DNA of 64,000 nt from Sphingomonas morindae (lineage in GTDB: Bacteria; Pseudomonadota; Alphaproteobacteria; Sphingomonadales; Sphingomonadaceae). Below, one piece after another: positions 39,270 through 42,969 of this stretch (position 1 is the stretch's first letter; each line of letters opens with the position of its first letter). A program made the position numbers and the translations under genes. The notes under the pieces were generated by a model. That model had not been told where the DNA came from, did not search any database, and worked only from the letters and a program-made list of their open reading frames with translations. The DNA lies in assembly GCF_023822065.1 (NCBI RefSeq), contig NZ_CP084930.1, positions 948,501-1,012,500 of the forward strand, in the 5' to 3' direction.

Positions 39270-39354
39270 AGCCGCGTACCGCCCGCGCGCAGGCTCCAAC
39301 CAATTCGTTAACCTTATTTGGGCAAGGCTCGGCGCGTCCTTGAGGAGGCGAGTG

Positions 39355-42249
39355 GTGTTCGGCGCCTTGATCTATCTGGCCAGCCATCACGACCTGCGGC
39401 TGCTGGCGCTGGCCGGCCTTGTCTGCGCGGCGTCGACCTCCACCGCCGTGCTGTTGCTGCGGCGGCTGCGCGCCGATCCGGGACAGGCGCCGCGCCTCTG
39501 GCTCGCCGCCGCCGGGATCGTGACCGGCGCCGGTATCTGGGCGACGCATTTCATCGCCATGCTGGGCTTCGATGCCGGCGTGACGATGGGCTATGATCCG
39601 GTCCGCACGCTCGCCTCGCTGCTGATCGCGGCAGGCTTCACCACCGGCGCCTTCGCGCTGACGGTGCGCGACGCGGTGCCGGGCGGCCGCTGGGCGCGGG
39701 GCGCGCTGTTCGGCCTGGGCGTGGCGGCGATGCATTATACGGGCATGGCGGCGATGACGGGCAGCGCGACGATGCGCTGGTTCCCGCCGCTGATCCTGCT
39801 CTCGCTGGCCTTCGCCATCCTGCCCGCCATATCCGCGCTCAACCTGATCGCCGCGCGGCGCGACCGCGGCTCGGCCACGCTCGCCAGCCTCTTGCTGACC
39901 CTCGCGATCCTGCTGCTGCATCTCACCGGCATGGCGGCGATGCGGATGATGCCGATGGCCAGCGCCGCGCCGGCGGCCGGCGCCCTGCCCACCCCGCTCT
40001 TCGCCGGCCTGGTGGCGGCGATATCGATGGGGCTGATCGCCATCGCGCTCGCGGCCAATCGCTGGAGCCTGAGGCGGCGCCAGGCGCATCAGAGCACCAC
40101 CGACGCCGCCTGGGCGGCGCTGTGCCGCTCAAACCTTGTCGCCGAATTCGGGCTGGACGGCCGCATCCGCTGGGCGAACGAAGCCTTTCTCGCGACGATG
40201 GGCTATACGCTCGACGAGCTGGCGGGGGAGAGCCACCGCCTCCTCTGCCCGCCCGACTTGCCCGCCACCCCGGACTATCAGGCCATGTGGCGCAGCCTGG
40301 GCCAGGGCGCCTTCGCGTCCGGCGAGTATCGGCGCATCGCCAAGGACGGGCGCACCGTCTGGCTCCAGGCCACCTATAATCCCGTGCTCAACGATCGCGG
40401 CCAGCCCGACCGCATCCTCAAGATCGCCTCCGACGTCACCGCCGCCAAAATGGCCGCCGCCGATTCCGCCGCGCGGCTGAAGGCGCTGGATCTTTCGCAG
40501 GCGGTGATCGAGTTCACCCCCGATGGCGTGATCGTGGCGGCCAATGACGGCTTTCTGCGGCTGATGGGCTATGCGCGCGAGCAGCTGATCGGCCAGCATC
40601 ACCGCCTCTTCTGCACGGCGGAGGACGCCGCCTCGGAAAGCTATGCCGCCTTTTGGCGCAAGCTCGGCCAGGGCCGGTACGATCAGGGCACCTACAAGCG
40701 GGTGGCGCGCGACGGCCGCGAGGTCTGGCTGAACGCCAGCTACAATCCCGTGCTCGACCCGGACGGGCGGCCGGTGCGGATCGTCAAGTTCGCCAGCGAC
40801 GACACCGAGGCGCGGCTGCGCAGCGCCGAGCGCCAGGCCATGGCCATCGCCATGCGTCGCTCGCAGGCGGTGGTCGAGTTCGATCTCGACGGCACCATCC
40901 TGGACGCCAACGACAAGTTCCTCGACTGCCTCGGCTATGCCCGGCACGAGGTGATCGGCCGCAAGCACAGCCTGTTCGTGCCGGACGCCGAGGCGCGCGG
41001 CCCCGCCTATGCCGCGCTCTGGGCCAAGCTTGCCCGGGGCGATTATGACGCCGGCATCTACAAGCGGCGCGCGCGCGACGGCCGCGACGTGTGGCTGCAG
41101 GCCAGCTACAATCCGATTCTCGATCCCGAAGGCCGGCCGATCAAGATCGTCAAATTCGCCACCGACATCACCGAGGCCAAGCTGCGCAGCGCCGAGCGCG
41201 AGGCGATCGCGGCGGCGATGGACCGTTCGCAGGCGGTGATCGAGTTCGCGCTCGACGGCACCATCCTGCACGCCAACGCCAATGCGCTGGAGGCCTTCGG
41301 CTATAGCGCGACGGATCTGGCCGGCCAGCCCCATCGGCTGCTCTGCCCCGCCGGGCAGGACCGTACCGACGACTATCGCCGCTTCTGGGACCGGCTCGCG
41401 GGGGGCGGGTTCGACAGCGGCGTCTACAAGCGCCGCGCGCGGAACGGCGCCGATCTGTGGCTGCGCGCCACCTATAATCCGATCCTCGATCCCGAGGGCC
41501 GCACCCTCAAGATCGTGCTGTTCGCGATGAACATCACCGAAGCGCGCGAACGGCACGCGGATCATGAGGGCCGGGTCAACGCGATCGCCCGCGCGCAGGC
41601 GGTTGTGGAATTCGCGCTGGATGGCACCATCCTGGACGCCAACGACAATTTCCAGGCCGCCTTCGGCTATGACCGGGCCGACCTGATCGGCCGCCACCAT
41701 CGCATGCTGTGCGACGAGACGATCGCCGGCGCGGCCGACTATGCCGCCTTCTGGGAGCGGCTGGCGCAGGGCGAGTTCAGCAGCGGGCGGTTCCGCCGGC
41801 GCGGCCGCGACGGCGGCGAGATCTGGATCCAGGCGACCTATAGCCCGATCCTCGACGCCGATGGCCGGCCGCGCAAGATCGTGAAGATCGCCAGCGACAT
41901 CACGCGGCAGGTGCGGCTGGAGCAGGAGGTGCAGGCGGCGCTCGCCGAAAGCCGCCGCTTCCAGGCGGCGCTGGAGACGCAGCGCGACCAGCTGGGCCGC
42001 ACCATGACCGAGATCACCCATATCGTCGGCTCGATCGGCGCGATCGCCTCGCAGACCAATTTGCTCGCGGTCAACGCCACGATCGAGGCGGCGCGCGCCG
42101 GCGAGGCGGGGCGCGGCTTCGCCGTGGTGGCGAGCGAGGTGAAGAAGCTGGCGCACAACACCAAGGCCGCCACCGAGCGCGCGCAGGACATGATCGTCCG
42201 CCATTCGGACATCGGCCAGTCGGCGCGCGGGCAGACGCTGGCGGCGTGA
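39355..42249 (+). CDS. MHYT-(PAS)5-methyl-accepting signal transducer
   Basis: About 964 residues. The N-terminal MHYT membrane sensor has seven helices and the repeated motif as [16 protein letters not shown] and LHLTGMAAM (about 1-250); MHYT is proposed to bind copper and sense O2, CO or NO. Five PAS domains follow at a strict 122-residue spacing. A short chemoreceptor tip at the end contains [22 protein letters not shown] and [15 protein letters not shown], which binds CheA/CheW. HAMP and a CheR-binding tail are absent. GAGGAGG at 39342-39348 favours GTG 39355; GTG 39352 is the alternative. Confidence 0.9.
40132..41961 (+). repeat. Five PAS-encoding units with a 366-bp period
   Basis: The equivalent codon of each unit (N/Q of the (Q)AV-x-EF motif) starts at 40132, 40498, 40864, 41230 and 41596, so the period is exactly 366 bp four times over. 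The units share EFxxDGxIxxAN, the GY/F turn, TYNPILDxxGR and the closing KIVKFA-x-DIT. The identical spacing indicates in-frame tandem duplication. Confidence 0.9.
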
Positions 42250-42270: not shown

Positions 42271-42969
42271 TCAGCCCCGCCCCTCGCGCCGGCCGTGATA
42301 GAGATGGGTGGCGGCGGCGGCCGCGACGATCGGCACGAGCAGATTGACGAAGGGCACCAGGAACAGCGCCGCCGCCGCCACCCCCAGCGCGGTGCGCGCG
42401 CCCCGGCTGGCCTGGAGCGCGGGGCGGAGCGCCGGGCCGCGGACGTGGCGCAGCGCCACCATCTCGCCGAGATCGGTTCCGAGCGCGAGCCCGTTGACCA
42501 GCACGAAGAGCAGCGCCGGGCCGATGCCGGTGACGAGCAGCACCAGATAGAAGGGCAAGGCGACCAGATTATAGACGAGCAGCCGCGCCGAGGAGCGCAG
42601 CCCCAAGGCCAAGGCGCGGGCCGGACCGAGCGGTCGCGCGGTGGCGCGGGCGGCGGGATAGTGGCGCGCCTCCACCGCCGCCACCACCGCGTCCATGAAG
42701 CCCGACAGCACGCCGATCGCCACCGCCGGAAAGAGCAGCCACAGGCCCAGGAGCGTCGCGAGCAGCGCGGACAGGCCCGAGGCGGTGGCATCGAGCGGGC
42801 AGCCGTCCAGCCCGATCAGCCCGCAGGGATCGCTCCCCGAAAGCGCCCAGCCGATCGCCAGCCCGGCGGCGGCGAACAGCGCGAGCGTGAGGAGCAGCGA
42901 GCGCATCAGGATGCGCAGCAGGGCGGGATCGGCGAGCTGGCCGACAGCGAGGGCGAGGGCGCGCAGCAT
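42271..42969 (-). CDS. EI24 domain (CysZ-like) membrane protein
   Basis: A 232-residue inner-membrane protein with four to five helices and the EI24/CysZ layout: FLLLTLALFAAAGLAIGW-type first helix, ATLLGLWLLFPAVAIGVLSGFMDAV, VYNLVALPFYLVLLVTGIGP and a final helix VPFVNLLVPIVAAAAATHL. CysZ is a sulphate permease in enterobacteria, but most alphaproteobacterial members have no proven substrate. It stands alone, converging with the MHYT receptor and divergent from zwf across about 107 nt. Confidence 0.85.
   Translation of the reverse strand: MLRALALAVGQLADPALLRILMRSLLLTLALFAAAGLAIGWALSGSDPCGLIGLDGCPLDATASGLSALLATLLGLWLLFPAVAIGVLSGFMDAVVAAVEARHYPAARATARPLGPARALALGLRSSARLLVYNLVALPFYLVLLVTGIGPALLFVLVNGLALGTDLGEMVALRHVRGPALRPALQASRGARTALGVAAAALFLVPFVNLLVPIVAAAAATHLYHGRREGRG

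Follow-up and report, generated by a model that had tools for sequence, protein, structure and literature searches.

A rare Sphingomonas morindae fusion joining five PAS domains and a minimal chemoreceptor tip to an MHYT membrane domain

A single frame of Sphingomonas morindae (39355-42249, + strand, GTG start, 964 aa) encodes an MHYT membrane domain followed by five PAS domains, a linker and a chemoreceptor tip. It lies in the window, that is, the whole stretch of 64,000 nucleotides of contig NZ_CP084930.1 that was analysed. From its sequence we think it rather probable that the protein is a membrane-anchored chemoreceptor of minimal form, which would enter CheA/CheW arrays and would have no methylation adaptation of its own. 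This reading is directly supported by the domains identified, the conservation of the C-terminal module, the residues of the tip, the hairpin as modelled and the Che-type genes of the genome. The fusion is rare in the data sampled, and each of its components is of an already known kind.

Architecture of the fusion protein

The MHYT-PAS5-mini-tip gene was delimited from its open reading frame, translation and Pfam matches, and a Shine-Dalgarno sequence, AGGAGG (39343..39348, +), indicates the GTG at 39355 (or at 39352) as its start. Pfam recognised MHYT (E 4.6e-26), five stretches of PAS (PAS_3 and further models) and MCPsignal (E 7.4e-24), the last covering only positions 22-96 of the 172 in the profile. 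These E-values are much too low to be due to chance. HAMP was absent from the families reported for the frame at E up to 1. An AlphaFold2 model of the full-length protein (30 aligned rows, mean pLDDT 79.6, pTM 0.38) showed the five PAS folds between a set of seven long helices at the N-terminus and a single long helix at the C-terminus; with a pTM of 0.38, it does not give the relative placement of the domains.

The MHYT domain, defined by Pfam PF03707, the AlphaFold2 model and motifs, occupies approximately residues 1-240 (39355..40074, +). The seven helices modelled in this region span residues 14-40, 46-70, 82-104, 111-132, 144-167, 171-194 and 213-259, as compared with six predicted for MHYT in PMC8846402; five segments came out of a simple hydropathy scan. 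Pfam gave two stretches, and MHYT-type motifs occur three times, at residues 62, 125 and 187, so that the protein has both the PF03707 match and the repeated motifs in membrane helices that mark an MHYT domain. Each motif pairs a His with a Met four positions on (H65/M69, H127/M131 and H189/M193), and a Met immediately precedes the His in the second repeat only. The pairs vary little or not at all in 78 other MHYT frames, which were taken among the matches listed from 376 genomes of the class, omitting the window's own, the short G650:C34 and G465:C32. According to Pfam, the outputs of these 78 frames were HisKA (44), HATPase_c (42), EAL (18), GGDEF (18) and LytTR (13), and MCPsignal occurred in none. 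The statement in the original prediction that MHYT feeds GGDEF/EAL or kinase outputs thus holds among them, with LytTR outputs besides. According to PMC8846402, what MHYT does is still unknown.

The five PAS domains follow one another on the + strand, as delimited by Pfam, the AlphaFold2 model and alignment: PAS1 (residues 256-377, 40120..40485), PAS2 (378-499, 40486..40851), PAS3 (500-621, 40852..41217), PAS4 (622-743, 41218..41583) and PAS5 (744-848, 41584..41898). The first four are given as full repeat units. The pitch is exactly 122 residues, and pairwise identity ranges from 43 to 61%. By eye, L133 (G017:C1:1826400-1828076) shows a kindred array, of some five PAS domains and lacking MHYT, in which GGDEF and an EAL-like region stand in place of the tip; the PAS stack is thus common to c-di-GMP and chemoreceptor outputs.

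The solved structures closest to PAS1 were the flavin PAS of MmoS (3ewk, E 2e-17) and then E. coli Aer. By manual mapping on the alignments, the Aer flavin contacts H53 and W70 have equivalents in all five PAS domains of the window protein. In the same mapping, N85 is replaced by R and R115 by A in all five, and R57 by C in four and by V in one, so that the full set of Aer-type FAD contacts (H53, R57, W70, N85, R115) is not found. AerC of Azospirillum brasilense (PAS_FAD2) is described in PMC13401364 as holding FAD weakly via tryptophans in common with Aer, and a W stands at the place of Aer W70 in 5/5 window PAS domains. Because H53 and W70 are kept, and because AerC holds its FAD through Aer-like tryptophans, a flavin is possible in these domains. 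A heme of the DosP type appears unlikely. Indeed, the heme ligand of DosP and FixL is presumably a histidine of the F helix, and in the alignment with DosP none of the window PAS domains has a His at that place, which is taken by T in PAS1 and by S, G, T and A in PAS2-5; in this respect none resembles a heme PAS of the FixL/DosP type. Of the proposed link from gas or copper sensing to CheA, the CheA side is supported by the CheA/CheW contact region present in the tip, and gas and copper stay candidate signals.

The C-terminal part, all on the + strand, comprises a linker between PAS5 and the tip (residues 850-899, 41902..42051), helical in both the full-length and the tip models, then the hairpin tip (residues 900-949, 42052..42201) and a short variable tail (residues 950-964, 42202..42246). 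The tip was recognised by Pfam MCPsignal, by PDB sequence matches and by a match of its model to 6s1k_E. In phmmer, its best PDB matches were, in order, 2ch7, then an aromatic-acid receptor, then 4jpb, 3ur1 and Tsr (1qu7), with E 1.1e-14 for 4jpb_B (90 aa) and 1.8e-14 for 3ur1_C (85 aa), about 65 residues being aligned. We take 2ch7 to be TM1143, and 3ur1 and 4jpb to be Tm14 fragments solved together with CheA and CheW. The contact residues of TM1143 given in PMC5706961, L362, L365, N366 and A368, correspond to L903, V906, N907 and T909 when the pattern L..LN.A is mapped manually on the phmmer alignment. L903 and N907 are identical, and the two changes, V906 for L and T909 for A, are mild; 4jpb_B also has T at the latter place. 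Identity to E. coli Tsr is 45%, and S899 and V906, which stand where Tsr has Phe (in AFQTN) and Leu, depart from the commonest tip residues.

A separate model of the tip (13 rows) reached a mean pLDDT of 91.9, and its best PDB match was 6s1k_E, a receptor of the E. coli core signalling unit (TM 0.66 on the query and 0.74 on the target, over 91 columns). DSSP assigns this model one helix, so the hairpin stands on the fold match to 6s1k_E. In the full-length model, residues 850-963 form one helix with no hairpin turn; its pLDDT is 61-79 as far as residue 950 and drops further along. That the tip might lack the CheA/CheW contacts, a weakness against which the prediction was to be judged, is contradicted by the residues kept and by the fold match of the tip model.

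Paired methylation helices were not found: the MCPsignal match stops at 96 of 172, and the alignment with Tsr runs out past the tip. The protein ends 48 residues past the EAARAG motif with GQTLAA, as compared with NWETF in Tsr, so no CheR/CheB pentapeptide is present. Neither this pentapeptide nor HAMP, which the protein also lacks, is universal in MCPs. The prediction of a minimal output was therefore borne out, with a partial MCPsignal domain, no HAMP, no methylation bundle and no CheR-binding tail.

The PAS-mini-tip family and the spread of the fusion

Judging from alignments and profile searches, the C-terminal module (PAS, linker, mini-tip and short tail) is a conserved family and is not peculiar to the MHYT fusion. 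The minimal MCP output had been recognised in the original prediction, but not that the mini-tip belongs to a wider PAS-mini-tip family mostly devoid of a membrane part. Nineteen aligned modules showed 39 invariant columns. The profile built from these 19 rows was run on the 397 genomes of the window's taxonomic family at E up to 1e-50 and matched in 23, of which 22 were counted as mini-tip genomes. G342 was set aside, its 1030-residue protein matching over PAS positions and having a much longer end; G007 and G063 were counted, as their sequences have the tip and short tail, although the listed match covers PAS only. In 376 genomes of the class, five of them from the window's family, the window protein scored 353.7 bits and the next best 182.4, and the mini-tip was found in the window genome only. 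With this score, a linker of 52 residues and a tail of 48, the window protein is a member of the family.

Among frames whose match reached the tip, mini-tips scored at least 280 bits and all others at most 90. Past EAARAG, 28 mini-tip genes have 33-59 residues, and tails outside the family have 72 (L142 and L143) or at least 87. A clean gap in tail length, 33-59 as against at least 87, was rejected on account of L142 and L143, two frames of 604 residues, which reached only 82-84 bits on the mini-tip profile. In the tree of the C-terminal module, mini-tips grouped into a single clade apart from six rows of conventional PAS-MCPs (100/99). Motifs show between one and four PAS domains in the 21 members examined that lack MHYT, at a pitch of 122 where there are several, and the hydropathy window of these members never exceeded 1.6, that is, they have no membrane segment. 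In the literature covered, which leaves out most subscription journals and consists of partial texts, neither the mini-tip family nor minimal receptors of this sort were found described.

The window gene is flanked by a nitronate monooxygenase-like gene and an EI24 gene; it is an orphan, no che genes having been seen among its neighbours, and this counts against the chemoreceptor reading. Since the EI24 gene (42271-42969, opposite strand), the next gene 3', comes right after the frame on the other strand, there is no lost C-terminal half directly downstream. A frameshifted or truncated gene was rejected on this ground and because the short end is common to the whole mini-tip family; as read from its frame and its relatives, the gene is not a broken one.

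A search of 10 genomes of the genus found the fusion in the window genome alone, and short proteins with similar ends in others. Five loci with the same layout were identified in S. lacusdianchii (two), S. corticis, S. hankookensis and S. aquatilis. Their products are 55-56% identical to the window protein over residues 1-947, and each has five PAS domains at a pitch of 122 and a 52-residue linker (domains of L020 confirmed by Pfam). Among the best 80 of 565 related loci, 69 had an MHYT frame, which by motif was joined to GGDEF and/or EAL in 63, to a tip in five and to none of these in one; among the loci searched, MHYT with a mini-tip was confined to the window genome and these five loci in four Sphingomonas species. 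That the fusion might be common, which would have told against the prediction, was rejected for the sample searched, with MCPsignal in 0/78 class MHYT frames and a tip in 5/69 MHYT loci. Of the 37 plasmid records matching at E up to 1e-60, not one covers 80% of the window protein at a single place, and two Azospirillum plasmid matches fall within its residues 255-953. An MHYT-MCP protein was absent from the titles and parts of abstracts found, in a search whose coverage leaves out most subscription journals.

A conventional MCP that has shed its C-terminal half and is on its way out would also lack methylation bundles and might well sit at an orphan location. Yet six loci have the frame intact, each with five PAS domains and a linker of 52 residues, tails keep to 33-59 residues across 28 mini-tip genes, and tip columns are invariant. 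We consider such decay highly improbable, as these observations already contradict it.

In the MHYT tree, the six fusion rows formed one clade (96/80), which sits inside a wider group of MHYT proteins from this taxonomic family. In the C-terminal module tree, fusion rows were joined in 0/200 bootstrap trees, and constraining the fusion tip modules into one clade was not rejected (p-AU 0.186). Either a single fusion with loss of MHYT afterwards in some members, or two captures, may account for these trees.

All five Sphingomonas fusions are followed by a 136-residue frame (L020-L024; L020:7899-8306), which is not found beside the window gene; no Pfam family matched its copy in L020 at E up to 0.01. 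Transposase-like frames were seen by eye upstream of L021 and L024, and all five loci lie on contigs of 12-25 kb; a mobile setting is possible.

Chemotaxis genes and a shared upstream hexamer

The window genome holds 18 MCPsignal matches and five CheW-domain matches, two of the latter in CheA-like frames, so that the search for CheA and CheW suggested with the prediction gave a positive answer as to their presence. Frames resembling CheA, CheW, CheR and CheB were seen by eye near C1:2.09 Mb, CheW being recognised by domain match too. A second CheA-/CheW-like pair, adjoining a ChpT-looking frame, was seen by eye at L160 (G000:C1:212000-231999).

CheW-domain matches occur in 275/397 genomes of the taxonomic family, in 21 of the 22 mini-tip genomes versus 254 of the 375 others (Fisher p 0.0038, not corrected for descent). 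The sole mini-tip genome without a match is G005, which is in 880 contigs. The mini-tip gene was found in 12 of 16 fetched regions, and in all 12 no che-like neighbour was seen by eye, the surroundings being mostly housekeeping. The co-occurrence with CheW-domain genes bears on another explanation, whereby the tip would contact other partners and control biofilm or c-di-GMP behaviour. BdlA of Pseudomonas aeruginosa, a PAS-PAS protein with a short MCP domain, regulates biofilm dispersal according to PMC8694187, and the fusion MHYT falls in the tree among the family's MHYT proteins, of which those from genome contigs carry GGDEF and EAL motifs. This co-occurrence speaks against such an output, as do the CheA/CheW-facing tip residues, kept family-wide, and we judge it unlikely.

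A TTAACC hexamer, a possible regulator site, lies at 39308..39313 (+), 41 bp from the GTG, and is common to other mini-tip genes. TTAACC may be a CtrA half-site. It occurs within 120 bp upstream of 9/21 non-redundant mini-tip genes, 28-51 bp before the chosen start, and is absent in the other 12. Of all 90 permutations of its letters it was the most frequent upstream (mean over the permutations 0.57), and the next best, which overlaps it, was found in 4. With another start rule and a 200-bp span, it was upstream in 14/25 rows, near copies included. Within the window its count is not unusual (2 found versus 1.84 expected), so the case for it is its position across relatives. In the window genome (4.24 Mb), TTAACC is strongly depleted, with 147 occurrences versus 936 for the reversed control. 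It lies upstream of 3/16 of the genome's own MCP loci, namely L008 (31 bp before the first ATG), L006 (98 bp) and the window gene, and by coordinates one copy abuts the open frame of L115. With caution, its presence upstream of mini-tip and some MCP genes may point to a regulator of motility type that these genes have in common.

Some MCP-like frames (L125, L115 at C1:2166906, L117, L118, L119, L123, L126 and L127) have about 300 residues beyond the tip. L125 (G000:C1:842336; 382 aa) has its tip close to the N-terminus and a dCache match in its C-terminal part. Frames of this type may represent an inverted receptor layout, with several copies in the genus.

Proposed mode of action and its significance

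From the above, we infer how the membrane and PAS signals, a dimeric coiled coil, binding to CheA/CheW, output and adaptation might fit together. MHYT would sit in the inner membrane, with copper, redox or gas as candidate signals. On the cytoplasmic side, the five PAS domains would be stacked at even spacing and would probably hold a ligand that is flavin-like or otherwise redox-linked. The state of PAS5 would be transmitted to the tip through a continuous coiled coil, with no HAMP. The hairpin tip would pack in receptor trimers and bind CheW and the P5 domain of CheA, so that CheA activity, and with it flagellar motion, would be altered. With neither methylation bundle nor CheR tail, the receptor cannot self-adapt, and adaptation would be borrowed from methylated neighbours within the same array.

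The lengths of the linker are relevant to the coiled-coil step. From DIT to QT, it counts 52 residues in the window protein and in 19 of 27 mini-tip rows in total, the others having 38 (n=4), 31 (n=2) or 49 (n=2), to which G242 adds another 49. In the six relatives with 38 or 31 it is 14 or 21 residues shorter, that is, by whole heptads, which leaves 25/28 genes in one phase; the length of 49, three residues shorter, puts 3/28 off it. As several rows are near copies, independent changes in length were few. Such whole-heptad steps, as expected of a phased coiled coil, suggest signal transfer from PAS to tip.

This phase also weighs on a different role, in which the mini-tip, inserted in trimers, would alter the size, position or gain of the array, PAS/MHYT setting its amount. 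Short soluble PAS-MCPs act in this way: PA1930 (McpS) is reported to affect chemotaxis negatively (PMC8694187), and in Azospirillum polar clusters are disturbed when AerC or Tlp4b is lost (PMC13401364). The lack of a methylation region, hence of self-adaptation, would fit as well. However, five PAS domains and a membrane sensor exceed what a structural part needs, and the heptad phase kept in most genes suggests that a signal is passed on. We regard the organising role as somewhat unlikely.

Compared by description alone, BdlA and McpS of P. aeruginosa and AerC resemble the window protein in layout and differ from it by its five PAS domains and MHYT. BdlA (PA1423) and McpS (PA1930), whose MCP domains are the two shortest in PAO1 and whose PAS domains are predicted to bind FAD (PMC8694187), likewise combine tandem PAS with an MCP domain; as described, they have two PAS domains and no MHYT. 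AerC is soluble with two PAS domains, and MHYT is not part of its description. In Vreelandella, the PAS-PAS-MCP frame L036 (446 aa) has a tail of 87 residues versus 48 here. MHYT-GGDEF/EAL proteins share the N-terminal membrane domain, and the fusion MHYT clade lies among them; their output consists of c-di-GMP enzyme domains, in contrast to the MCP tip. E. coli Aer, another membrane-held PAS receptor acting on CheA, has its H53 and W70 kept in the window PAS domains. Yet it signals via HAMP, whereas the window protein has neither HAMP nor equivalents of N85, R57 and R115. The Thermotoga fragments 3ur1 and 4jpb, presumably laboratory truncations, are tips of 85-90 residues, of which the mini-tip is close to being a natural version; they carry no sensor, unlike the window protein with its MHYT and PAS sensors.

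More tentatively, we propose as a possibility that mini-tips make up a sphingomonad class of tip-only receptors without adaptation region, fixed to a membrane sensor in a few species, and that the five-PAS stack acts as a height ruler in place of the coiled coil. This idea draws on the two fusion lineages, which are about 55% identical and both keep exactly five PAS domains at exactly 122, the soluble members examined having one to four. It also draws on PMC7534058, which reports array heights of 25 or 38 nm in Vibrio and, in E. coli, the exclusion of receptors from the main cluster after a length change of one heptad. If true, the PAS stack would put the tip level with the CheA/CheW plate.

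If the tip binds CheA as its sequence predicts, the membrane sensor would steer swimming. MHYT wired to a chemoreceptor tip would offer a fast, graded read-out, through CheA activity and swimming, of the signal that MHYT perceives. As natural minimal receptors, mini-tips may serve to test how much of a chemoreceptor the control of CheA needs. They may also show if neighbouring receptors can supply the adaptation and if receptor height can be determined by a stack of PAS domains.
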